A DNA stretch of 64,000 nucleotides from Rhodobacteraceae bacterium XHP0102 (GTDB taxonomy: Bacteria > Pseudomonadota > Alphaproteobacteria > Rhodobacterales > Rhodobacteraceae), in assembly GCA_025751475.1 (NCBI GenBank), contig JAOWLD010000001.1, forward strand, positions 682,001 to 746,000. The letters are read 5' to 3'. The notes below the pieces were generated by a model. It searched no databases, was not told where the DNA came from, and saw only the letters and a program-made list of their open reading frames with translations. Positions 2,282 to 31,501 of the stretch are shown here, piece after piece (within the stretch, counting starts at the first letter, position 1; each line of letters starts with the position of its first letter). The translations under genes were made by a program, and so were the position numbers.

Positions 2282-3400
2282 TTAGCCTTCCAAACTGACG
2301 GGCAGGTCCAGGCCATGCTCGGCCAGAAGTTTCGCGCGGCGTGCGGCGGTCAAATCGGCCTCGACCATTTCCGCGCACATTTCTTGCGCGGTGATCTCTG
2401 GCACCCATCCCAATTTTTCCCGCGCCTTGGTGGGGTCGCCCAAAAGTGTGTCCACCTCTGCAGGGCGGAAATAGCGCGGGTCGATGCGCATCACCACATC
2501 GCCCACTCTCACGGCGGGCGCCTTGTCGCTGTTGACCGCGGTCACGGTGGCGATTTCCTCCAAGCCTTGGCCGCTGAATTCGAGGCTCAGGCCCAATTCG
2601 GCGGCGGTCCAAGTGATGAAGTCGCGCACGCTATATTGCTGGCCCGTGGCGATTACGAAATCCTCGGGCGCGTCTTGTTGCAGCATCATCCACTGCATTC
2701 GCACATAATCCTTGGCGTGGCCCCAATCGCGCAGGCTGTCGATATTGCCCATGTAAAGGCACTGCTCTAGCCCAAGTGCGATATTGGCCATGCCGCGCGT
2801 AATCTTGCGGGTGACAAAGGTTTCGCCGCGGCGCGGGGATTCATGGTTAAATAGGATGCCATTGCAGGCATAGATCCCGTAAGCTTCGCGATAATTCACC
2901 GCGATCCAATAGGCGTAAAGTTTCGCCACCGCATAGGGGCTACGCGGGTAAAAGGGGGTCGTCTCGCGCTGCGGTGTTTCTTGCACAAGCCCGTAAAGTT
3001 CCGAGGTTGAAGCCTGATAGAAGCGCGTTTTCTTCTCTAGTCCCAAAAAGCGGATCGCCTCCAAAAGGCGCAACGTGCCAATCGCATCCACCTCGGCGGT
3101 ATATTCAGGCGCCTCAAAACTGACCGCGACATGCGATTGCGCGCCAAGGTTATAGACCTCATCGGGTTCGATATCCCGTAAAATGCGGGTGAGGTTGGAG
3201 CTATCCGTCAGATCGCCGTAATGCAGTTTGAACCGCGCATTATCGACATGAGGGTCTTCGTAAATATGATCCACTCGCTGCGTGTTAAACAAAGACGCGC
3301 GCCGCTTGATCCCGTGAACCTCATAGCCTTTGTCCAGCAAAAACTCCGCCAGATAGGAGCCATCCTGCCCCGTAATCCCCGTAATAAGTGCGCGCTTCAT
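2282..3400 (-). CDS. gmd: GDP-mannose 4,6-dehydratase
   Basis: First step from GDP-D-mannose towards GDP-L-fucose (or GDP-rhamnose/perosamine), forming GDP-4-keto-6-deoxy-D-mannose. A 372-residue extended SDR: NADP-binding [12 protein letters not shown] at the N-terminus, catalytic Thr/Ser in ASTSELYG, and [12 protein letters not shown] with the YxxxK pair. Length is typical. The start has a strong GGAGGG ribosome site. It is followed directly by fcl, which fixes the product as GDP-L-fucose. The region upstream carries a perfect 18-bp inverted repeat and is shared with the divergent gene at 3611. Confidence 0.96.
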
Positions 3401-8213: not shown

Positions 8214-8259
8214 GCTGGCGTTGCGGTAAGCCTTGCGGGGTTGGGGAAGGAACAGAACA

Positions 8260-9693
8260 TTGGCCAAGGATAATCAAATCTACCCCATCATCCTTTGCGG
8301 CGGGTCTGGGACGCGGCTTTGGCCTGTCAGTCGCGCGGCCTTTCCCAAGCAATTTGTGCAACTGCACGGGAATGGCAGCCTGTTTCAACAGGCGGCACGG
8401 CGCCTGTCGGGGCAGGGGTTTGCGGGGCCCGTGGTGATCACCTCTGACCCGTTTCGCTTCACGGCGGCCGAGCAGATGCAGGGCATCGGCATTCCCCCGC
8501 AGGCCTTGATCCTAGAGCCTGAGGGGCGTAACACCGCGCCCGCGATTTTGGCGGCAAGCCTTTGGGCCGCCGCGCGCGATCCGCAGGCCCTTCTCTTGGT
8601 GGCGCCGTCAGACCATGTCATTCCCGACCCTGTAGCGTTTCGCGCGGCGGTCTTGGCCGCGCAAGCGGCGGCAGAGGCAGGGCAGATCGTCACATTTGGC
8701 ATTCGCCCCGACCGCCCTGAGACGGGCTATGGCTATCTGGAATTGGGCGAAGGCTCAGGGGGCGCGTGCCTGCCTCTCCGCCGCTTTGTGGAAAAGCCCG
8801 ATCTTGCCACTGCGAAAACCATGTTGGCCTCGGGCCGTTACCTGTGGAACGCGGGTATCTTCCTGTTCCGCGCGGATGTGATGATTGCCGCATTCGAGGC
8901 GCACGCACCCGAAATGCTGACCCCCGCCCGCGCGGCCCTTGAGGGTGCGAAAGCCGACCTTGATTTCCTCAGGCTTGATCCTGCCGCATGGCGCGATCTT
9001 CCCGATATCTCTATCGATTACGCGATTATGGAGCGCGCGGATAACCTGTCTGTTATGCCTTATGAGGGGCAATGGTCGGATCTCGGATCCTGGACCGCCG
9101 TGGCGGAACAGTCGGCCACTCAATGCGATGCGCAGGGCAATCTGATCTCTGACCACGCCCATGCGATCGATTGTGAAAACACGATGCTGCGCAGCGATGA
9201 TGGAAAGCTGCGCTTGGTGGGTATCGGGCTGCGGGACATGGTCGCGATTGCCACAGGCGATGCGGTATTGCTCGCCCCCAAAGATCAAAGCCAGCGGGTG
9301 CGCGAGGCGGTCGATTTGCTAAAGCAGCAAGGCGCAAAAGAGGCCACCGAATTCCCGCGCGATTATCGCCCTTGGGGGTGGTTCGAAAGCCTTGCCTTAG
9401 GCGCGCGGTTTCAGGTCAAACGCATTGTGGTGAAACCGGGCGGCGTGTTGTCGCTGCAATCGCACCAACATCGGGCGGAACATTGGATCGTGGTTGAGGG
9501 CACCGCCAAAATCACCATCGGTGACGAGGTCAAAATGGTGTCCGAGAACCAGTCGGTTTACGTGCCCCTCGGCGCGATCCACCGCATGGAGAACCCTGGA
9601 AAAATCCCGATGGTGCTGATTGAGGTGCAAACAGGCAGCTATCTGGGCGAGGATGACATCATCCGCCACGAAGATATCTACGCCCGCGACTGA
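8260..9693 (+). CDS. manC: Mannose-1-phosphate guanylyltransferase / mannose-6-phosphate isomerase
   Basis: A bifunctional type II enzyme that makes GDP-mannose, the precursor used by gmd. It has the pyrophosphorylase signature GGSGTRLWPVSR at the N-terminus, FVEKPD in the middle, and a C-terminal cupin domain with the metal-binding block LSLQSHQHRAEHWIVVEG (isomerase half). The chosen start is TTG at 8260, which has GGGGAAGGAA seven bases upstream; a TTG at 8233 would add nine residues. The resulting 477 residues fit the family. No phosphomannomutase gene is seen in the window, so mannose-1-phosphate must come from elsewhere. The 3' end overlaps the convergent capD-like gene by 16 bases. Confidence 0.95.
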   Translation: MAKDNQIYPIILCGGSGTRLWPVSRAAFPKQFVQLHGNGSLFQQAARRLSGQGFAGPVVITSDPFRFTAAEQMQGIGIPPQALILEPEGRNTAPAILAASLWAAARDPQALLLVAPSDHVIPDPVAFRAAVLAAQAAAEAGQIVTFGIRPDRPETGYGYLELGEGSGGACLPLRRFVEKPDLATAKTMLASGRYLWNAGIFLFRADVMIAAFEAHAPEMLTPARAALEGAKADLDFLRLDPAAWRDLPDISIDYAIMERADNLSVMPYEGQWSDLGSWTAVAEQSATQCDAQGNLISDHAHAIDCENTMLRSDDGKLRLVGIGLRDMVAIATGDAVLLAPKDQSQRVREAVDLLKQQGAKEATEFPRDYRPWGWFESLALGARFQVKRIVVKPGGVLSLQSHQHRAEHWIVVEGTAKITIGDEVKMVSENQSVYVPLGAIHRMENPGKIPMVLIEVQTGSYLGEDDIIRHEDIYARD

Positions 9694-11555
9694 TGATACC
9701 CGATGGGTAAGCTGCGCAAAGTATCGATGATGCTTGCGCCATCTTCGGCCTGCAGCGCGGCCTCTAGGGCCGCAAGCGCGCGGGGGGTGTCGCTTGGGTC
9801 TACCTCATATTTGGCAGGCTCCAGCATAATCCGCGGATGCGCGGTGGCCTCTGCCCCGTCATCGACCAAAAGCTCTTCATAGAGTTTTTCACCAGGCCGC
9901 AGCCCCGTGATTTCAATCGCGAGGCCATCGGCAATCGGGGCCTCTTGCCCTGCAATATAGGTTTCGCGCCCCTGAAGGCGGGCCATGGTGCGGGCCAACT
10001 CTAGGATCTTGATCGGCTCCCCCATATCGAGAAGGTAAATTTCGCCTGCTTGGGCCATTGCATTTGCTTGGATCACCAATTGTGCGGCTTCGGGGATGGT
10101 CATGAAATAGCGGGTGATTTCAGGATCAGTCAGGGTGATGGGGCCACTTTTTCGGATTTGGTCGGTAAATTTAGGAATGACGGACCCAGATGAGCCCAAC
10201 ACATTCCCAAAGCGCACCGCACAAAAGCGCGTGTCAGGATAGGCCTTGGCGGTGGCTTGCATCACCAATTCCGCCACGCGTTTGGTGGCCCCCATCACAT
10301 TGGTGGGGCGTACGGCCTTATCTGTGGAAATCAGGGTAAAGTTTTTAACGCCCAAACGCCCTGCGGCTTCGGCCACGCATTTCGTGCCAAAGACATTGTT
10401 GCGCAGACCTTCAAGGATATTCGCCTCGACAAGCGGCACGTGTTTGAAGGCCGCCGCATGAAACAGCGTTTCGACCGCATTCTCTGTGATGGCGCGCGCC
10501 ACGCGCCCTTCCTGTGTGACTGAGCCGAGGATCGGGATCAGCTGCGTTGTGCCCGCGCGCGGTGCAAGCCAAGCCTGCAAATCCTCCAAAATGCGATAAA
10601 GCGCGAATTCCGAATTCTCGAATAGGACCAGCTTGCTTGGGTTTTGTTCCAAAATTTGGCGGCACAGCTCGCTGCCAATCGAGCCGCCGGCGCCTGTCAC
10701 CATAACAGATTTGCCATGGGTGGTTTTCGACATCAGATCAGGCAGCGGTGGGACGGGGTCGCGCCCCAATAATTCCTCAACCGTGATACGCCGCAATTCC
10801 GATATCCGCACGCGGCCAGAAACCAGATCGGACATATTGGGGATCACCCGCACCTCTAGCCCCAGATCGGCCAAAACCTGCGCTGCTTTGCGCCGTCCTG
10901 CGGGGTTGCTGTCTGCAATCGCGATAAGCGCGGTTTTGATCCCCAAATTCTTGAGCCGCGCGGAAGCCTGATCTGGGCGCACGATGCGCACGCCGCCAAT
11001 TTCACTGCCTGATAATTTGCCATTGTCATCCACGAAAAGGGCAGGGCGGTAATTTCGGCTTTGCTCAAGCGCTTGCAACACCTGTCGGCCTGCTTCGCCT
11101 GCGCCATAGATCAAGACGGGCTCACGCGTGGCTGCTTGTGTGCTGAGGTAAATGCCGCGCATAATGAACCGCGTGCCCCCCACCACAATCAGCAAAAGCG
11201 CGAGATAAATCGCGGGAACCGAACGCGGAACGCGCAGGTTTAACCCTTGGCTGAGAAGGAACATGGTCACGGCGGAGATCAGAACCCCAATGGCCACCGT
11301 GCGCACGGCCCGATCCGCCATATATCGGATCACCGCGCGATACAGACCAAGCCCCACAAAGACAAAGATCGTAATCGGAATAACCGGCAGCAACACGTAA
11401 TAGGGGCGCGACCCCATCGCCATGATGTTCCCATCAAGGCGCAGCGCCATCGCCAGCCAAAAGCAAAACACAATGGCCAGCGCGTCAAAGGTGACTTGGA
11501 TCAGCCGCTTGGTGCCGCGTCCCAGTCCAAAGAGATGTTGCGAAAGGCCAAACAT
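9678..11555 (-). CDS. Membrane nucleotide-sugar dehydratase/epimerase, FlaA1/WbpM (CapD) type
   Basis: A 625-residue protein: four or five N-terminal membrane helices (about residues 15-115), a CoA-binding-like Rossmann region (EPVLIYGAGEAGRQVLQAL near 145), then the catalytic extended-SDR domain with VTGAGGSIGSELCRQI near residue 285. The catalytic triad region reads LISTDKAVRP...NVMGATKR, giving Ser-Met-Lys instead of the usual Ser-Tyr-Lys; the Tyr-to-Met change is characteristic of the large membrane-bound WbpM-like 4,6-dehydratases. It probably converts UDP-GlcNAc to a 4-keto-6-deoxy sugar, giving residues such as QuiNAc or FucNAc. Convergent with manC and probably transcribed after the GT25 and GT11 genes. 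Confidence 0.9.
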   Translation of the reverse strand: MFGLSQHLFGLGRGTKRLIQVTFDALAIVFCFWLAMALRLDGNIMAMGSRPYYVLLPVIPITIFVFVGLGLYRAVIRYMADRAVRTVAIGVLISAVTMFLLSQGLNLRVPRSVPAIYLALLLIVVGGTRFIMRGIYLSTQAATREPVLIYGAGEAGRQVLQALEQSRNYRPALFVDDNGKLSGSEIGGVRIVRPDQASARLKNLGIKTALIAIADSNPAGRRKAAQVLADLGLEVRVIPNMSDLVSGRVRISELRRITVEELLGRDPVPPLPDLMSKTTHGKSVMVTGAGGSIGSELCRQILEQNPSKLVLFENSEFALYRILEDLQAWLAPRAGTTQLIPILGSVTQEGRVARAITENAVETLFHAAAFKHVPLVEANILEGLRNNVFGTKCVAEAAGRLGVKNFTLISTDKAVRPTNVMGATKRVAELVMQATAKAYPDTRFCAVRFGNVLGSSGSVIPKFTDQIRKSGPITLTDPEITRYFMTIPEAAQLVIQANAMAQAGEIYLLDMGEPIKILELARTMARLQGRETYIAGQEAPIADGLAIEITGLRPGEKLYEELLVDDGAEATAHPRIMLEPAKYEVDPSDTPRALAALEAALQAEDGASIIDTLRSLPIGYHQSRA

Positions 11556-11628: not shown

Positions 11629-12333
11629 TCAAAGGTTGTAATCAACCGTGCGACCCAGAATATCGGAATAAGAGGCGGCCTGTTGCGCCGCACGGGGGCG
11701 GGCAAGGGCGAAGATAAATCTGCGCTGCGCCACCTGCCATGTGATATCCACAGCTGCGGTTTTATCAGGCTCTCCCGCTTCTAGGCGTCTCACGCTCTCT
11801 CTCGCAGTTTCGCGCAGCGCCTCTACAACCTGCGGCTTGACCAAATAGCAGGACATGGTGCGCGTGTTTGAGGTGATCAGAAAATCCTCGCAGACTTCGA
11901 CCCCGTTGCGCCGATTATAGGCCAGACACAGAACATCCATGCGGCTGTCGCGGTAAAATGTTTCAATCAAATGATCGAGCCGCGCGCGATCTGCCAGAAA
12001 TTCCAGATCATCCTCGCAGATCATGGTGATCCGCCCCTCTACGGGGGTGGCGGCTTCGATCACATCGCGATGCGACATGGCGCAGCCCGTTGCGCCGCGC
12101 GCGTGTTTATGGGCGGCAAAGCGGGTCACATTTTGCGCGCCGATCTTGGCAAATTCCGCCTCGATCCGTTCCCGCCGATCCGTGCGGTGATCAAGGTTGA
12201 TATAGGTGATGTCGCAGCGGTCTAGCCCATGCGCCACATCAAGACCTTTTGGCGTGGTTTGCACCGCGCGCCGCCACCGCCATTTTAGGCGCATATTCTG
12301 CAACCATCGCTGCAATTCACGTTTCGGGCTCAT
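11629..12333 (-). CDS. Family 25 glycosyltransferase
   Basis: A 234-residue protein with the GT25 (LPS galactosyltransferase, LgtB/LpsA-like) pattern: TYINLDHRTDRRERIE near residue 44, GCAMSHRDVIEAA near 87, and the acidic ICEDDLEF near 108. It probably transfers a hexose to the polysaccharide or LPS core at the cytoplasmic face. It starts four bases after the GT11 fucosyltransferase stop, so the pair is an operon. The substrate cannot be predicted. Confidence 0.85.
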   Translation of the reverse strand: MSPKRELQRWLQNMRLKWRWRRAVQTTPKGLDVAHGLDRCDITYINLDHRTDRRERIEAEFAKIGAQNVTRFAAHKHARGATGCAMSHRDVIEAATPVEGRITMICEDDLEFLADRARLDHLIETFYRDSRMDVLCLAYNRRNGVEVCEDFLITSNTRTMSCYLVKPQVVEALRETARESVRRLEAGEPDKTAAVDITWQVAQRRFIFALARPRAAQQAASYSDILGRTVDYNL

Positions 12334-12337
12334 GGCG

Positions 12338-13237
12338 TTACATCCTCACCCAATGGGGCAGATAAATGTCTTCCATCGGCTCAGGGCTGCCTGCGAACCA
12401 AATTTTTGGTGCGATGACGATTTGGCCATCATCCGCCACCCCATGCGCACGGGCCAACCATGCCCCCCACCAACTGAAACTGGAATTGGCGATCACATGG
12501 TGTTTGCAGCGCGCCATCAACATCATATCGCGATAGCTGACCGCGCCCGTGTTGCCCGTGACATAGGTGATATCCGCGCCCTGACCGAATTCGGCCTTTG
12601 CCGCGTCTAGATCGTCTGAGAACACGAAAAACTGCGGCGCATCGAGGCCCGCGCGCATATGGGCCATGGCCGCCTTGTAATAAGGCCAATCACAAATCCC
12701 GTGAAAGGCGTTCACATTGGCGTTCTTCACATAATCGCCGCGCCGCACATGAAGGCTGACGGCGGTGCAACCTGCCATTTGCGCGGCAATCTGCGCATTC
12801 TCGCCCGTAAAATCCTCCCGAAACTCAAAGGCGCGGGCAATCGCTTCCTCGGCCCCTTGGAAATATTTGGGCGATTGCCAATAGCCCGCGAGATAGGTTT
12901 TTCCCGACAAGGCGCTGAAACCGTCCCAGTAATTATGCGTGGGTTGCCGAATTTTCGGCCCTGTTTGCGGGTTCGGCAAACGGGGGTCTGGGGTCACGCT
13001 GCCCCGCACGCCACGCCGCATTCCAAACCCCAAGACGCGAAACAAATCCAGTTTTGACGCGGTTTGAAAATCGCCCTTAAAAATTTGCTCAAACTGATAG
13101 CCCTGATGCAGTTTGTATTTGCGCAAACTGGTCAGGTCGAGACGCAATTCTTGACCCGTGCGCGCCGCAAGCGCCGCACCTGCCGCATATTGGAACATCT
13201 GGTTGCCCAATCCCCCGATAAGGCGCGTGATGATCAT
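12338..13237 (-). CDS. Alpha-1,2-fucosyltransferase (GT11)
   Basis: Transfers L-fucose from GDP-fucose to a galactose-type acceptor. A 299-residue GT-B enzyme with the N-terminal GT11 signature RLIGGLGNQMFQYAAG, the GDP-fucose-binding VSLHVRRGDYV near residue 160, and the C-terminal block ANSSFSWWGAWL. Length is usual for bacterial WbsJ/FutC relatives. The start has GAGGG six bases upstream. It explains why GDP-fucose is made in this locus (manC, gmd, fcl). A 130-bp divergent promoter region separates it from the GT4 gene at 13368. Confidence 0.93.
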   Translation of the reverse strand: MIITRLIGGLGNQMFQYAAGAALAARTGQELRLDLTSLRKYKLHQGYQFEQIFKGDFQTASKLDLFRVLGFGMRRGVRGSVTPDPRLPNPQTGPKIRQPTHNYWDGFSALSGKTYLAGYWQSPKYFQGAEEAIARAFEFREDFTGENAQIAAQMAGCTAVSLHVRRGDYVKNANVNAFHGICDWPYYKAAMAHMRAGLDAPQFFVFSDDLDAAKAEFGQGADITYVTGNTGAVSYRDMMLMARCKHHVIANSSFSWWGAWLARAHGVADDGQIVIAPKIWFAGSPEPMEDIYLPHWVRM

Positions 13238-13367: not shown

Positions 13368-14516
13368 GTGCAGAAGATGAGCCGTTTACGCCTCCTTATG
13401 GTCGCCGATACATTGGCAGGCGGCGGGGCCGAGCGGGTGATCCTTGATCTCGTTAACGCAAGCATGGCCCGCGATGATGTGGACATTGTTTTGGCGGTGT
13501 CACAAAACCATGGGCCGCTGAAAGACGCCTTTCCCAAATCCACGAAAATCTATGAATATGGGGATTTTCGCGCGGCGCATAACGCATTTTCCAATGCGCG
13601 CGCCTTGCGCAAAATCTGCTCCGCAGAACGGATTGACGCAATCGTCTCGCATATGACCACGGTCAATAAGGCAATGCTGCGGGCCAAACTGATCGCGCCC
13701 GCTTTGCCGCCCGTGTTTATCGTTGAGCATACGGAGATTGCGCGTCAGTTATTTGATATACCTTCGGCATGGAAACGGCGCACACGGCCCATTGAATTTC
13801 GCCTGCTTTACCCGCGCGCGGCGGGGATCATTACGGTTTCCCACGGCATTGGGGCGGAGTTGCAACGGTTTTGCGGAATTAACCCCCGTCTTTTCACGAC
13901 AATTCTAAACCCTGTGGATCGTCAGCGTGGGCAGGGTGGGGCGGTTCAAACGGTGGAAGCAGGCCCCAAAGGCCGTGTTGTGATCTCGGTGGGGCGGCTT
14001 GATGGGGTCAAGAATTTCAAGGCGCTCTTGCGGTCCTTCGCCGCGACTGTAGCGGCCCGTGGCCACAGCGATGATCGCCTTGTGATTTTAGGCGAGGGAT
14101 ATCAGCGCGCAAGGCTTGAGGCGCAGGCGCAAGAACTGGGCCTTTCAGGGCAAGTCCACCTCCTTGGTTTTACCGATAATATTTTTGCGCATCTGTCCGC
14201 AGCAGATTTGTTCGTTTCGACCTCGCTCTATGAGGGGCTTGGCAATGCCACGCTTGAGGCCATCGCGGCAGGCTTGCCTTGCATCTCGACAGAAACGGCA
14301 GGGTCGCGGGAATTGGCCCAGCACATCGGCGCGTTGCAGTTGATTGCACAGGGCGATGAGGCGGGGCTCGCGCAGGCGATGGTCGATCAGCTTGGAACAG
14401 CTGCGCTGAAGGTCAGCGCGGCAGATCAGGCCTTTGTTGACAGCCTTGCACCCGATCAGGTGTTGGCGCGTTATCTCGATGTCATTAAAGCGGAAAGGAC
14501 GGGCAGAGATGATTGA
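13368..14516 (+). CDS. Family 4 glycosyltransferase
   Basis: A 382-residue GT-B glycosyltransferase. The N-terminal half starts RLLMVADTLAGGGAERVILD, the GGxE-type signature of GT4; the C-terminal half has VISVGRLDGVKNFKALLRSF near residue 207 and the donor-binding STSLYEGLGNATLEAIAAGLP near residue 285 with the E-x7-E-like motif. The GTG at 13368 has GAAAGGGA five or six bases upstream; an ATG nine bases later is a weaker option. It overlaps the next gene by eight bases. Sugar and acceptor are not predictable. Confidence 0.9.
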   Translation: MQKMSRLRLLMVADTLAGGGAERVILDLVNASMARDDVDIVLAVSQNHGPLKDAFPKSTKIYEYGDFRAAHNAFSNARALRKICSAERIDAIVSHMTTVNKAMLRAKLIAPALPPVFIVEHTEIARQLFDIPSAWKRRTRPIEFRLLYPRAAGIITVSHGIGAELQRFCGINPRLFTTILNPVDRQRGQGGAVQTVEAGPKGRVVISVGRLDGVKNFKALLRSFAATVAARGHSDDRLVILGEGYQRARLEAQAQELGLSGQVHLLGFTDNIFAHLSAADLFVSTSLYEGLGNATLEAIAAGLPCISTETAGSRELAQHIGALQLIAQGDEAGLAQAMVDQLGTAALKVSAADQAFVDSLAPDQVLARYLDVIKAERTGRDD

Positions 14517-15777
14517 CCTCTCAGCCTCAGGGCAAAGACAGGCCCGCGTGGCCTCTTGGGGGGAAGTGGCCCTTTTGGCATTGGCATTTTTTGCCTTGCC
14601 CTTGTTCGAGGCCCCCAAAAATGCGGCAAGCTTATTATTCCTGTTTGCCTTTGTGGTTCAATCTCTACGCCTGCGCGGCCTCGGTCGGGCAAGCCCGTTT
14701 GACTGGCCGATTGCGGGTTTGATTGCGGTGCTGTGGATCGGGCCTGCCCTGTCCGAGTTTCGTGATGTCTTGCCGCCCCAAGACAGCGCCACACGCTGGA
14801 CCTTGCTCGGCCTTTTTGTGCTGGCCGTGGGGCGGTTGAGTTACACGGCGGTTCACGTGAAAATCTTGGTCGCGGCATTGCTTTTGGGGGGCGGGATTGC
14901 CGTTTTGGAAAGCTTCTATTCATGGTCGTTGAATGACCGTCCGTTTCCTGAGTTCCGTTCGGTGGGCCATGTGAACCATTCGGGAATGTATTCCCTGATC
15001 CCCTTGGCGCTGGGGATTGCCATGTTGTCAACGCGTGATCTTTTGCTCAAATCGCTTGGGGTTTTTGCGATAGCCACCACCTTGGCCTATTTGCCGCCCT
15101 CGCGCAGCTTGGTCAGTGGGATTGCCATTGTGGCCATCATCGCCGTTGCGGCGATTATGGCGGCACTGGCGGCGCGCAAATTACGCCACTTGGCCTATGC
15201 GGCGCTGAGCTTTGGTGCAATTGCCGCGGGTATCTTGACCCTGCCTGCGGCCGCCGAGTTTCGCGCCGAGGCCGTGGTGCGTGTCACGGGCGATGACCTG
15301 TGGTCTGGGCGCGACAAGATCTTGAACTCCGCCCTCGAGGTGTACGACCGTCACCCAGTGTTTGGCACAGGCTTTCAAAGCTTTGGCCTTGCCACCGCCG
15401 AAGAAATCGTGCGCGCCGAGGTCGAAGCCGATGGCCGCGATTATGACGCGATTAAAGATCGCTATTGGTTCTTTGGCCATGGTCATAACCTCTGGACAAC
15501 TATGTTGATTGAACGCGGTCTGGTCGGGGTGGTTCTGATAAGCTGGCTGCTGGTTGCCTATTTCTGGGCCTTCCTGCCCCTTGCGCTGCGGCGTGACGCG
15601 GCGCAGCCCCTTGCGCGTGCCGTTGCACAGGCGGGCGTGTTGATCGCCACGGGGTTCCTCGTGGCGGGTCTGGGCAACACAACCATGATGAATGAACACG
15701 GGCAGGCGGGCATGGCGATGATTGCTATTGCTTGGGGGTATCTGCGCGCCAGTGGTGCAATTGCACAGTCGCGTTAG
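14509..15777 (+). CDS. O-antigen ligase / polymerase family membrane protein
   Basis: A 422-residue membrane protein with about eleven hydrophobic helices and the Wzy_C (O-antigen ligase-like) region: a large periplasmic loop around residues 255-330 containing DDLWSGRDKILNSALEVYDR, HPVFGTGFQSF and FFGHGHNLWTTMLIERG. The His/Arg-rich loop is what WaaL and Wzy proteins use to handle undecaprenyl-linked glycan. It either ligates the glycan to lipid A core or polymerises it. The ATG at 14509 overlaps the upstream GT4 stop by eight bases; longer in-frame starts inside that gene are unlikely. LptD-like and RfaH-like genes follow. Confidence 0.88.
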   Translation: MIDLSASGQRQARVASWGEVALLALAFFALPLFEAPKNAASLLFLFAFVVQSLRLRGLGRASPFDWPIAGLIAVLWIGPALSEFRDVLPPQDSATRWTLLGLFVLAVGRLSYTAVHVKILVAALLLGGGIAVLESFYSWSLNDRPFPEFRSVGHVNHSGMYSLIPLALGIAMLSTRDLLLKSLGVFAIATTLAYLPPSRSLVSGIAIVAIIAVAAIMAALAARKLRHLAYAALSFGAIAAGILTLPAAAEFRAEAVVRVTGDDLWSGRDKILNSALEVYDRHPVFGTGFQSFGLATAEEIVRAEVEADGRDYDAIKDRYWFFGHGHNLWTTMLIERGLVGVVLISWLLVAYFWAFLPLALRRDAAQPLARAVAQAGVLIATGFLVAGLGNTTMMNEHGQAGMAMIAIAWGYLRASGAIAQSR

Positions 15778-15856: not shown

Positions 15857-18301
15857 TTGGCGCGCAACTGGCATAGATATTTTTGGAACAGCGTGCGCGA
15901 TGTCTCCGCGCCGCTTCGGCTTGGTGTGGGTCTTGGTCTGGGGGTGGTGCTCGGGGCCACATTGACGGCGACTTGGGGCTTGGCGCAAAGGGCAGATGAC
16001 CCAAGCGCCGCTGACCATCCCCTTCCCTCGACATTGATCGCGGATAATATCAGCTTTGATCAAGCCACGCAGACCTATCGCGCCGCGGGCAACGTCCAAA
16101 TTTTCTATGATAATATGGAATTGCGCGCGCCAAGCCTTGCCTATGACGCGCAGACAGATCGCGTTATGATTGATGGCCCCCTCTATCTGATCGAAAGCGG
16201 GGGGGCGCAGGTATTTTATGGCGCATTCGCGGATTTATCCGCCGATCTGTCCGATGGTGTGGTCGTGGCCGCCCGACAGGTGATTGACCAGAACCTGCAA
16301 ATTGCAGCCCAAGAAATGATCCGCCGCGAAGGGCGTTATACGGAATTCCCCTATGTGCGGGCCTCAGCCTGCGAGGTGTGTTCGGAAAACGCGACACCGC
16401 TGTGGGAATTGCGCGCCCGCCGCGCGGTGCATGATCAAGAGACGCGCAGCATCACCTATCGTGATGCGCAATTGCGTGTGGCAGGCACGCCTGTGCTTTA
16501 CACGCCGTGGTTGCGCACCCCTGACCCAACGGTGGCACGGGCAAACGGATTGCTGGCGCCCACCTATGCGGTCAATTCGCGCTTGGGCACGCGCATTGGC
16601 TTGCCCTATTTCCGTATGTTGGGGGACAGCGCCGATATCACCGTCACACCGCAGCTTTCGGTTGCGGGCGGCTCTGGCGCGGGTGGGGGTGTTTTACGCA
16701 CCTTGGAGGGGCGATATCGGCAGGCCTTTTCCAGCGGCTATGTCGAGTTAAACGGTGCCATCAGTCGAGATGACCTGACCGATGACGCCTTGCGGGCATA
16801 TTTGTTTTCAAATGGGCGCGCCGAATTCGACAATGGGATTGACCTTGTGTTCCAAACGCAATCTGCCTCGGATCGGACCTATATCAGCACCTATGATTTC
16901 TTTGCCGATGGCCGCACCAGCTTTGGAGATGACCCGGTGGTGTTTGCCCAAGATCGCCTGAACAATTTCCTGCGCTTCTCGCGCCGCAGCGCCGATGAGG
17001 TTCTCAGCTTTGATTATACGGCCTTTTCGCCCTTGCGCGAGGAAGACTATGATTACAAAGCCCCCAATCGCCTTCTGAACGCGCAATGGACATTTTTGCG
17101 AGAGACGGGGGATTTTGGCGATTTGACGCTCAATTTCGGCGCACAAGCCGATTACAATGACTTTGGCAATGCAAACCCCCGCCGCAGGGATGTGGATCGG
17201 GCGATGGCCAATATCATTTGGGATGGGGCGTGGCAGGCGGGAGAGGTCTTGCGGATCAATACGGATTTGGGAGTGTTCCTCGACCAATATGGCATTCATG
17301 ATGATGCAAGCCTGCCTGATCGCCAAAACAGCACCAGCGGATTTGCGGCCACACGGCTCAGTTGGCCGATTGAATTTGATGGGCCAAATGGCGCGCAGCA
17401 AACCCTGACGCCATCTATTGGCTTTTTGCGGTTCGAGGCGGGCGCGGTCCAGATCCCCTCGATTGATGGATCAATCGATATGATTGATCCCTTTGATTAT
17501 GCCCAGCTTGGCCAATACCGCCGCGTCAATCGCAGTCAGATCAACCAATACGATTTGACCGTTGCAGATATCGATGTGACCTATCGCTACGCGCTGCCAT
17601 CGGGCTATTATTTCGGCGGCTCGGTCGAGCGGGATCATATCATCTCCAGCGACAATCCCCTGCTGCAATCGGGCGCGCTTTACACGGCGCGTCTGGGGCG
17701 CAGCACGGGTCCGTTCCAATTCTCCGTTACAAGCCGCTATAACCCTGATTTCGAGCGGGTGTCGGATGTCATCACCTTCCGCCAAGCTTTGGATCATCTG
17801 ACAATTGATGGGGGTTATTTCAGTGTCGAAACCGATGAGGCGCTTGGCAACCCAGAGGCAGAACGCCGTTGGACATTGGGCCTGACGGCGCAAGTCACGG
17901 AATTTGTCGAAGCGCGGATTGGCGTGATCGATGATGAATATAAACAAGACGCGTCCTTCGTCACGGGGCGGATCGCGTTTGACAATATGGTTGATTGGCG
18001 CTCCGCCTTGGGGTGGACGTATGACAGCGATGAGAATGACTTTGACAGCTTGCGGTTCGATGTCGGGCATAGGTTGGATTGGGGCGGCGAGGTTTATGCG
18101 CTTTATGGTTTGGATGATGACACGGTGCGCCGCTATGGCATCGGCATTCAATTCGACAATGAATGTCTGCGTGCCCGCGCACAGGTGTCACGGGTCGATA
18201 ACCGCGTAACGGGCCTTTCTCCGATCACGCAATTCTCGCTTGATTTCGAGCTTGGCTCTTTCGGGCGCGGTGCAGGCGCACAGTCGCGCAAATGTATGTG
18301 A
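15857..18301 (+). CDS. LptD-family outer-membrane LPS assembly protein
   Basis: LptD forms the outer-membrane beta-barrel through which LPS reaches the cell surface. This 814-residue protein has an N-terminal hydrophobic segment (residues 20-42), an OstA/LptA-like jellyroll (about 55-160), the family block with a cysteine pair ASACEVCSENATPLW, then VLYTPWLRTPDPTVARANG, and a long strand-rich barrel ending with further cysteines (DNECLRAR and the terminal SRKCM), matching the inter-domain disulfide layout of the family. The start is TTG with GGAGGG upstream. It is not beside lptF/lptG, surA or pdxA, the usual company of lptD in this group, but in a glycan cluster, so it may be a second copy for a special surface glycolipid. 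Confidence 0.85.
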   Translation: MARNWHRYFWNSVRDVSAPLRLGVGLGLGVVLGATLTATWGLAQRADDPSAADHPLPSTLIADNISFDQATQTYRAAGNVQIFYDNMELRAPSLAYDAQTDRVMIDGPLYLIESGGAQVFYGAFADLSADLSDGVVVAARQVIDQNLQIAAQEMIRREGRYTEFPYVRASACEVCSENATPLWELRARRAVHDQETRSITYRDAQLRVAGTPVLYTPWLRTPDPTVARANGLLAPTYAVNSRLGTRIGLPYFRMLGDSADITVTPQLSVAGGSGAGGGVLRTLEGRYRQAFSSGYVELNGAISRDDLTDDALRAYLFSNGRAEFDNGIDLVFQTQSASDRTYISTYDFFADGRTSFGDDPVVFAQDRLNNFLRFSRRSADEVLSFDYTAFSPLREEDYDYKAPNRLLNAQWTFLRETGDFGDLTLNFGAQADYNDFGNANPRRRDVDRAMANIIWDGAWQAGEVLRINTDLGVFLDQYGIHDDASLPDRQNSTSGFAATRLSWPIEFDGPNGAQQTLTPSIGFLRFEAGAVQIPSIDGSIDMIDPFDYAQLGQYRRVNRSQINQYDLTVADIDVTYRYALPSGYYFGGSVERDHIISSDNPLLQSGALYTARLGRSTGPFQFSVTSRYNPDFERVSDVITFRQALDHLTIDGGYFSVETDEALGNPEAERRWTLGLTAQVTEFVEARIGVIDDEYKQDASFVTGRIAFDNMVDWRSALGWTYDSDENDFDSLRFDVGHRLDWGGEVYALYGLDDDTVRRYGIGIQFDNECLRARAQVSRVDNRVTGLSPITQFSLDFELGSFGRGAGAQSRKCM

Positions 18302-18308
18302 GGCCCTC

Positions 18309-18818
18309 ATGACGGCGGGGCCTTTGAAAACATGGTATTTGGTGCAATTCAAACCCAATTCGCACAGCATTGCCTTGCGCAATTTGAACCGCCAAGGGTT
18401 TGAAACCTTCCTGCCCATGATCACGGTCACCGCGCGGGTTGGGTCGCGGTTTATGTCACGGTCCCGCCCGCTTTTCCCGGGCTATCTGTTTTTGGCGCTA
18501 GACGCGGGGCAGGGGGCATGGCGCAAGATCAACTCCACCTATGGGGTGGCACGCATTGTTTCTTTCGCAGGGCAGCCAAGCCCCGTGCCTCATGATTTGG
18601 TGGCAGGATTGCAGGCGCGTTGTGATGCATCGGGGCTTTTGTCTGCGGCCAGTGATCTCGCGCCGCGAGATCAGGTGACGCTGCAAAAAGGCCCGTTCGC
18701 GCAATTCGTGGCTACGGTAGAGAGCTTGGATGAAGAGCAGCGCGTTTGGGTCTTGATTGATCTGATGGGCCAAAAGACCCGCATCAATGTCGCGCGTGGG
18801 GATGTCACGAAAGCTTAA
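18309..18818 (+). CDS. RfaH/NusG-like transcription antitermination factor
   Basis: A 169-residue NusG paralogue. Residues 8-110 form the NGN domain (KTWYLVQFKPNSHSIALRNL, RQGFETFLPM, SRPLFPGYLFLAL, then YGVARIVSFAG), and the C-terminal part has the KOW-like barrel (RDQVTLQKGPFAQFVATVESL). Size is close to RfaH (162) and smaller than typical NusG. The ATG at 18309 lies seven bases after the LptD-like stop. RfaH-like factors bind RNA polymerase and let it read long polysaccharide operons, so this is the likely dedicated elongation factor for the locus. Its gene being last would give positive feedback. True NusG would sit next to secE, which is absent here. Confidence 0.88.
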   Translation: MTAGPLKTWYLVQFKPNSHSIALRNLNRQGFETFLPMITVTARVGSRFMSRSRPLFPGYLFLALDAGQGAWRKINSTYGVARIVSFAGQPSPVPHDLVAGLQARCDASGLLSAASDLAPRDQVTLQKGPFAQFVATVESLDEEQRVWVLIDLMGQKTRINVARGDVTKA

Positions 18819-29827: not shown

Positions 29828-31501
29828 ATGGATATCAAGACCATCAATGCCGAGATTTCGGTTGCGCCACAGATCACACCCGATGAGGTGCAACAGCTTG
29901 CCGATCAGGGCTTTCGCGCCCTGATTTGCAACCGTCCCGATGGCGAGGCGGCCGATCAACCCAATTTTTCGGAAATTGAGGCCGCTGCGAAAAAGGCAGG
30001 TCTGGAAATTCGCAATCTGCCCATCGTGTCGGGCAAAGTCACCGATCAAGATGCCGCGGATTTCGGCGCGGCGATGCAGGAATTGCCGCGTCCCATTCTG
30101 GCCTATTGCCGCACGGGCACGCGTTCGGCCACCTTGTGGTCGCTGTCGCAGGCCAATCGGTTGTCGGTGGCCGATATTCTGGCGGCAACCAAAGCAGCGG
30201 GTTATGATATGGGCGGGGTCGTGCGCCGTATTGCCAATGGTGGCAAAACCCCAACCGACCGTGCAGATGCCAGCTATGATATCGTGATCGTGGGTGCGGG
30301 CGCGGCAGGGCTTGCTGTGGCGGCTTCGCTGAAATCGCGCAAATCATCGCTTGAGATCGCGGTGATTGATCCTGCCGATATCCATTATTATCAACCAGGC
30401 TGGACCATGGTGGGTGGTGGCATTTTTGAGGCTGCGGATACCGCCAAAACCATGGGCAGTTTGATCCCGCGCGGGGTGACATGGATCAAATCCGCCGTTG
30501 CGGCCTTTGAGCCAAAAGATGATGTTGTGATCTTGGACGGATGCCGCGTGGTGAAATACAAGCGCCTGATTGTGGCGCCGGGTTTGAAACTGGCATGGGA
30601 CCGCATCGAGGGGTTGGAAGCCACCCTTGGTAAGAATGGCGTAACCTCAAATTATCGTTATGATTTAGCGCCTTACACATGGAACCTCGTCAAAAACATG
30701 AAGGAAGGCCGCGCGATATTCACGCAGCCGCCTATGCCCATCAAATGCGCAGGCGCGCCGCAAAAGGCGATGTATCTTTCTGGGGATCACTGGACGCGCG
30801 CGGGCGTGCTCAAGGACATCTCGATTGATTTCATGAATGCAGGCGGCGTTTTATTTGGGGTCAAGGATTACGTCCCCGCCCTTGAGGGATATGTGCAGAA
30901 ATACGGGGTCAATCTCAACTTCTTCCACAATCTCAAGGCGATTGATGGCGCGGCGAAAAAGGCGTGGTTCACCGTGGCCAAGCCCGACACCCCCCCCACC
31001 GAGGTCGAGGTGGAGTTCGACATGATCCATGTCGTGCCGCCGCAGATCGCGCCCGATTTCATCCGTGTCTCGCCATTGGCTGATGCGGCGGGTTGGGTCG
31101 ATGTGGATCAGGCCACATTGCGCCATAAGAGCTATGAAAATATTTGGTCCTTGGGTGATGTGATGAATGCGCCTAACGCCAAAACCGCGGCCGCGGCCCG
31201 GATGCAGGCGCCGATCGTGGCACAGAATATCATCGATGACATCAATGGCAGCAGCGCAACCGCGCAGTATAACGGTTACGGCTCCTGCCCTTTGACCGTG
31301 GAGCGCGGCAAGATCGTCTTGGCGGAATTTGGCTATGGCGGGGCGCTTTTGCCGTCTTTCCCCAAAGCGGTGATTGATGGCACGAAACCTTCGCGCTTGG
31401 CGTGGTGGCTCAAGGAAAGCTTCCTGCCGCCCTTCTATTGGAAGGGGATGCTGAAAGGGCGTGAATGGATGGTCAAGCCCGAAAAGATCAACGTTCGTTA
31501 A
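29828..31501 (+). CDS. DUF442 (phosphatase/sulfurtransferase-like) - sulfide:quinone oxidoreductase fusion
   Basis: A 557-residue two-domain protein. Residues 1-135 are a DUF442/TIGR01244 domain related to protein tyrosine phosphatases with the loop CRTGTRS at Cys94; in Blh proteins this domain acts as a sulfurtransferase. Residues about 148-557 are an FAD-dependent disulfide reductase with dinucleotide-binding GAGAAG at 156-161 and the SQR-type cysteines in MPIKCAGAPQK and GSCPL, plus GYGGALLPSFP near the C-terminus. It should oxidise sulfide to persulfide and pass electrons to quinone at the inner membrane, with the N-terminal domain possibly receiving the sulfane sulfur. Confidence 0.9.
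   Translation: MDIKTINAEISVAPQITPDEVQQLADQGFRALICNRPDGEAADQPNFSEIEAAAKKAGLEIRNLPIVSGKVTDQDAADFGAAMQELPRPILAYCRTGTRSATLWSLSQANRLSVADILAATKAAGYDMGGVVRRIANGGKTPTDRADASYDIVIVGAGAAGLAVAASLKSRKSSLEIAVIDPADIHYYQPGWTMVGGGIFEAADTAKTMGSLIPRGVTWIKSAVAAFEPKDDVVILDGCRVVKYKRLIVAPGLKLAWDRIEGLEATLGKNGVTSNYRYDLAPYTWNLVKNMKEGRAIFTQPPMPIKCAGAPQKAMYLSGDHWTRAGVLKDISIDFMNAGGVLFGVKDYVPALEGYVQKYGVNLNFFHNLKAIDGAAKKAWFTVAKPDTPPTEVEVEFDMIHVVPPQIAPDFIRVSPLADAAGWVDVDQATLRHKSYENIWSLGDVMNAPNAKTAAAARMQAPIVAQNIIDDINGSSATAQYNGYGSCPLTVERGKIVLAEFGYGGALLPSFPKAVIDGTKPSRLAWWLKESFLPPFYWKGMLKGREWMVKPEKINVR

Follow-up and report, generated by a model that had tools for sequence, protein, structure and literature searches.

The 814-residue protein studied here is encoded in the marine Rhodobacteraceae bacterium XHP0102 (genome G000, 2.68 Mb, 99.98% complete), on a stretch of 64,000 nucleotides (contig JAOWLD010000001.1, positions 682,001 to 746,000) that was analysed as a whole and is called the window below. 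All coordinates of the following features refer to the window.

2282..3400, minus strand: GDP-mannose 4,6-dehydratase
8233..9693, plus strand: mannose-1-phosphate guanylyltransferase / mannose-6-phosphate isomerase
9678..11555, minus strand: polysaccharide biosynthesis NDP-sugar epimerase/dehydratase (Polysacc_synt_2)
11629..12333, minus strand: GT25-like glycosyltransferase
12338..13237, minus strand: GT11 (fucosyltransferase-type) glycosyltransferase
13368..14516, plus strand: GT4 glycosyltransferase, first gene of an apparent GT-ligase-lptD2-rfaH transcription unit
14434..15777, plus strand: O-antigen ligase-like gene directly upstream of lptD2 (domain match to Wzy_C, E=1.6e-10)
15857..18301, plus strand: lptD2, a divergent LptD homologue of 814 aa and the only LptD of the genome (ORF, sequence and fold comparison)
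16028..16561, plus strand: part of lptD2 for the periplasmic jellyroll and linker (aa 58-235), with Cys172 and Cys175
16562..18301, plus strand: part of lptD2 for the beta-barrel (aa 236-814), with Cys770 and Cys813 close to the C terminus
17894..18079, plus strand: approximate extent of a barrel insertion in lptD2 (aa 680-741; alignment and predicted strands)
18309..18818, plus strand: RfaH/NusG-like antiterminator gene directly downstream of lptD2 (TIGR01955)

The lptD2 gene starts with a TTG codon, with GGAGGG upstream. The ATG of the rfaH-like gene lies at 18309, 7 bp past the lptD2 stop (18301), and a longer rfaH ORF begins at 18240; its product matches TIGR01955 with E=3.9e-35 and 121 bits, which is under the cut-off of 144.5 bits. 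lptD2 is surrounded by genes for GDP-mannose and GDP-fucose-type sugars, several glycosyltransferases and FkbM-family methyltransferases. No PHROGs match was obtained and no phage link was seen.

To the solved LptD structures the protein was related by phmmer (5iv9_A, E=1.5e-11; 4n4r_A, 3.8e-6), and the NCBIfam LptD models matched it at 4e-10, far under the model cut-offs. It has no match to Pfam PF04453, which is reached by all 21 normal family LptDs scanned. The absence of any LptD from the genome, as an empty PF04453 search would have it, was rejected, since the protein has diverged too far to be recognised by PF04453, while sequence, profile and fold comparisons show an LptD. All 37 best Foldseek matches of the predicted structure are LptD (top E=7.6e-29). 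The protein is thus a divergent LptD variant outside the curated PF04453 core model and not a canonical LptD. Together with its relatives it is designated LptD2, as opposed to the housekeeping type, termed normal LptD; one member of the clade, the LptD2 of LSUCC0031, passes PF04453 (33.4 against a cut-off of 22.4 bits). The four LptD cysteine columns (172, 175, 770 and 813 in XHP0102) are kept in 7/7 LptD2. With a dN/dS of 0.05-0.12 within the genus, lptD2 is under purifying selection and is therefore neither a chance nor a decaying ORF. Homology and the Wzy_C and TIGR01955 matches thus confirmed the first-pass annotation in its description of an LptD-like protein of 814 residues with conserved cysteines between an O-antigen ligase-like and an RfaH-like gene.

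To find any second LptD, the genome was searched with the XHP0102 protein as query and with a profile of 21 normal LptDs (E<=1). Apart from lptD2 itself, just a weak LptA-like match was returned, and a hidden normal LptD was rejected on the same result. LptD2 is likewise the only LptD in the three genus mates, Rhodobacterales bacterium LSUCC0387 (G150), the single-contig genome G151 and G152, as judged from LptD2 and normal-LptD profiles; the four genomes are referred to as genus g1. Normal LptD is carried by nearly all of the ~397 family genomes, usually in the operon pepA/lptF-lptG-lptD-surA-pdxA. On contig C3 of XHP0102 this operon reads pepA / lptF-lptG-surA-pdxA, with lptD missing between lptG and surA, and lptG is followed by surA in the same way in G150, G151, LSUCC0031 and the family genome G374. 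No lptD remnant was detected at the lptG-surA junction of XHP0102, G150 or G151. In another family genome, G180, a normal-lptD fossil of ~100 codons with two stops lies exactly between lptG and surA, and an intact LptD2 is encoded elsewhere. As a separate observation, lptF and lptG, which are usually adjacent, are found on different contigs of G180 (L146 and L149), so that the operon is split in the fossil-bearing genome. LptD2 is hence the only intact LptD in g1, LSUCC0031, G374 and G180. As read from gene order and sequence, lptD2 is not a relocated housekeeping lptD, and the normal lptD is deleted from the lptG-surA site. The remaining genes of the Lpt bridge are retained in XHP0102, namely lptF and lptG and, by ORF reading, the locus rnd-lptC-lptA-lptB-hpf-ptsN, in which lptA was recognised as a weak OstA-like match.

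These results bear on the two branches that the first-pass annotation had left to a genome-wide search. A dedicated exporter of a second glycolipid is not supported for XHP0102, where lptD2 is the only copy, whereas the other branch, a sole copy tied to O-antigen genes, is borne out by the LptD searches. The notion of a second LptD fits relatives better, namely the plasmid-borne set of Marivivens and M. donghaensis, which has both kinds (the LptD2 being broken). Nor is the placement a local arrangement common to all relatives, as nearly all of the family genomes carry normal LptD and the lptG-surA site is emptied in g1. The loss of lptE, the barrel insertion, the G180 fossil and the horizontal spread, all described here, go beyond that annotation.

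LptD and LptE are regarded as a near-universal, essential and co-adapted pair in Proteobacteria and as an antibiotic target. The family position of lptE is between leuS and holA, as seen in Marivivens donghaensis (G118), G180, G085 and G145. In XHP0102, G150, G151, G374 and LSUCC0031, holA follows leuS after 10-51 bp and lptE is missing. A profile built from four family LptEs detected LptE in 378/397 family genomes (down to E=1e-5) and found no LptE in XHP0102, G151 and G374. Among well-assembled genomes, LptE is missing in 3/4 of those with LptD2 only versus 4 of ~341 with normal LptD (Fisher test, p=2e-5 by genome and 8e-4 by genus). G180 has lost normal lptD and kept lptE, demonstrating that LptD2 is not always paired with the loss of LptE; we read it as an intermediate in which normal lptD is decaying and lptE is not yet gone. 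Beside lptD2 in g1 no conserved lipoprotein gene was found, and the absence of the lptE gene suggests that LptD2 is independent of LptE in g1, G374 and LSUCC0031.

LptE was also undetected in four LptD-bearing genomes, G331 (a single contig), G069, G103 and G199. As G331 looks closed, it may represent an independent loss of LptE. Three further well-assembled genomes (G168, G233 and G358) gave no match to LptD, in the search with the LptD2 profile, or to LptE; loss of LPS or another displaced translocon is possible for them.

The divergence of LptD2 is unevenly distributed along the protein. Compared with normal LptD, the jellyroll is 41% identical and the initial barrel segment 39%, and the segments after them 20, 16 and 25%; normal LptDs compared with one another share 57, 50, 40, 37 and 49% in the same five segments. 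The invariant residues Asp544 and Cys770 are spaced by 222-226 residues in 7/7 LptD2 versus 165-171 in 48/48 normal LptD, and a barrel insertion of ~55 aa is present in all LptD2 and in 0/48 normal LptD. AlphaFold2 models of LptD2 and of a normal Marivivens LptD as control, made from the same set of 27 sequences, differ by four strands that are additional in LptD2 (684-693, 701-709, 714-723 and 728-739). Upon superposition on solved barrels the LptD2 model reached a TM of ~0.45 (rmsd ~10) and the control ~0.75 (rmsd ~3.9). If the normal LptD barrel has 26 strands, the models are consistent with an LptD2 barrel that has grown from 26 to about 30, and the extra strands would presumably sit in the barrel wall. 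An origin of the insertion as a recent copy of the adjacent hairpin was rejected, as no internal similarity was found.

Among the 397 family genomes and the genome collection searched, LptD2 is confined to g1, M. donghaensis, G180, G374 and LSUCC0031, besides a plasmid copy in Marivivens. The latter is an intact lptD2 on a 169-kb plasmid of Marivivens sp. JLT3646, with lptC, kdsB, genes for a Kdo transferase and a WecA/MraY-type transferase, an O-antigen ligase and an ABC transporter, and rfaH as neighbours. This plasmid region (NZ_CP018573.1 91101-123380, L051) brings its own copies of lptC, kdsB and the Kdo transferase gene along with lptD2; the ABC transporter is Wzm/Wzt-like, and the whole comes close to a portable set for LPS assembly and export. 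M. donghaensis carries lptD2 as a pseudogene with two to three in-frame stops and has an intact normal lptD elsewhere in the genome. Compared with the plasmid, its locus (G118:C9:1-20000) lacks the segment from fructose-bisphosphatase to lptD2, a deletion that comprises the Kdo transferase, kdsB, ligase, lptC and WecA-like genes. The lptD2 module is decaying in M. donghaensis, where normal lptD persists; normal LptD was present in 7/7 Marivivens genomes examined. A normal-type LptD was also noted outside a chromosome, on a 1.58-Mb extrachromosomal replicon of Pseudorhodobacter turbinis (NZ_CP039965.1:117439-119463).

In the phylogeny of the LptD copies, LptD2 forms a clade of its own, separate from normal LptD (SH-aLRT 100), on a stem of 1.13 changes per site. 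It is placed beside the LptDs of the family genomes G085, G145, G171 and G190, while a position outside all family LptD was not rejected (p-AU 0.09); from the sequences, an origin near these LptDs is thus suggested with less certainty than the unity of the clade. In a six-gene host tree the LptD2 hosts fall in four places. A single clade of all hosts was rejected (p-AU 3e-78), as was a clade of g1, G374 and LSUCC0031 (p-AU 0.012); G180 lies on long branches, so its exact position is weak. Since hosts and LptD2 branch in conflicting orders, the gene appears to have moved and to have displaced normal lptD repeatedly. On this comparison of sequence trees, displacement took place at least twice, and probably three times when G180 is counted.

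An O-antigen ligase adjoins lptD2 in 4/5 LptD2 lineages. The exception is G374, where lptD2 is set among cytochrome c maturation genes, demonstrating that the glycan linkage of lptD2 is not universal. Inheritance of one ancestral ligase alongside LptD2 was considered and holds for g1 and LSUCC0031 only, whose ligases are orthologous; by BLAST, those of G180 and Marivivens are unrelated. As the ligases differ between lineages, the linkage seems to have arisen or to have been retained several times, and it presumably has a functional meaning. A galU-like gene is located between the O-antigen ligase and lptD2 in LSUCC0387 (L045:9568-10401), and a galU-like fragment was also found near lptD2 in G180 (L142:3-593).

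We consider it probable that a mobile LptD2, linked to O-antigen and LPS genes, displaced the housekeeping lptD and took over LPS insertion without canonical LptE in g1, LSUCC0031 and G374. LptD2 would have started out as an additional, mobile copy associated with such genes and, in g1, would have replaced the normal outer-membrane translocon, with lptD being lost from lptF-lptG-lptD-surA and lptE from leuS-lptE-holA. The retained LptB2FGC-LptA bridge would hand LPS to the conserved LptD2 jellyroll in the manner of normal LptD; from the barrel it would then leave laterally, and LptD2 would presumably insert it into the outer leaflet. In g1, LSUCC0031 and G374 this would take place without canonical LptE and, presumably, without a substitute protein. 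Synthesis and attachment of O-antigen would fall to the neighbouring genes, with RfaH probably ensuring that the unit is transcribed. A wider form of this proposal is offered tentatively: a plasmid-transferable LPS-export module with a ~30-stranded, LptE-independent LptD that repeatedly displaces LptD/LptE in Rhodobacterales and has left a fossil in one genome.

Vertical descent might account for the locus if the lineage's own lptD had moved into the glycan cluster and evolved fast there, lptE being lost in a separate event. In agreement with this, LptD2 nests beside LptDs from genomes that are near g1 and G374/LSUCC0031 (SH-aLRT 90-94). Such a history is nevertheless improbable, as LptD2 also occurs in the distant Marivivens and G180 (reference tree, AU test), is carried on a plasmid and is found in M. 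donghaensis together with a normal lptD that is intact, and as G180 combines an intact LptD2 elsewhere with a normal-lptD fossil at the old site. The coexistence in M. donghaensis and the fossil in G180 indicate that both kinds of LptD once shared one genome. A related question is whether LptE is truly dispensable or was relocated, or whether a lipoprotein that has escaped recognition plugs the barrel of LptD2 in its stead. LptE is short and evolves fast, which limits profile searches, but the same profile finds it in nearly all family genomes, the usual leuS-holA slot is closed in five genomes and g1 lptD2 has no conserved lipoprotein gene at its side; we regard a hidden LptE as rather unlikely.

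Two further readings concern the substrate. LptD2 might export a glycolipid that is linked to O-antigen and distinct from ordinary LPS. The ligase linkage in most lineages would lend this some colour, as would the Marivivens plasmid, whose lptD2 comes with an lptC, a kdsB and a Kdo transferase of its own, much like a separate export set. Yet LptD2 is the only intact LptD in g1, LSUCC0031, G374 and G180 and must therefore serve whatever LPS those cells have, and a single lptFG pair is kept; this reading is very improbable. Alternatively, g1 might have given up lipid A-based LPS, with LptD2 carrying another lipid-linked glycan. Loose motifs located no lipid A genes in ~0.8 Mb of the XHP0102 genome, and a few other family genomes seem to be without both LptD and LptE. 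However, the motifs were weak and sampled ~30% of the genome, the one for Kdo transferase failing on a known Kdo transferase, and lptF, lptG, lptC, lptA and lptB are retained and the genome also encodes an O-antigen ligase, RfaH and LPS-type glycosyltransferases, which makes abandonment of lipid A highly improbable.

LptD2 resembles the LptD of Klebsiella and E. coli (PDB 5iv9, 4q35) in sequence, fold, N-terminal jellyroll, large barrel, four cysteines and the conserved start of the barrel. It differs from the LptD of the LptDE translocon by the insertion and the four predicted extra strands, by its site in an O-antigen cluster and by the lack of an lptE gene in most hosts. Normal Rhodobacterales LptDs are its nearest tree relatives and the same Lpt pathway genes surround the emptied site, whereas LptD2 is a separate clade that coexists with them in M. 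donghaensis and displaces them elsewhere. Nearly all Proteobacteria have an LptE homologue, and LptE possibly matters more for LptD biogenesis than for LPS transport (PMC7204523). LPS transport is reported to depend little on LptE in P. aeruginosa (PMC7204523) and, in the account given there of Bos and Tommassen (2011), in Neisseria meningitidis. In contrast to LptD2 hosts, where lptE is gone from its place in five genomes together with normal lptD, both species still have lptE in the genome. GfcD, the proposed exporter of lipid-anchored group 4 capsule, shares with LptD2 the idea of a lateral-gate barrel that frees a lipid-anchored polysaccharide; it is set apart by its description as a different and smaller barrel whose C-terminal unit has 13 strands (PMC11494523). 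No description of the LptD2 clade was found in the open-licence PMC papers searched.

On more than one occasion, a divergent relative moving together with O-antigen genes has apparently taken the place of an essential outer-membrane machine. The double loss of lptD and lptE makes the need for LptE directly testable, and LptD2 hosts offer a natural system for the role of LptE, for the limits of LptD barrel enlargement and for asking whether O-antigen type and export pore are swapped together. Apart from the glycan genes, the window encodes a 557-aa protein (29828-31501) with a BLH_phosphatase domain joined to a pyridine nucleotide-disulphide oxidoreductase; it is followed by a sulfate-permease-family gene, an arrangement that resembles a sulfide-oxidation unit.
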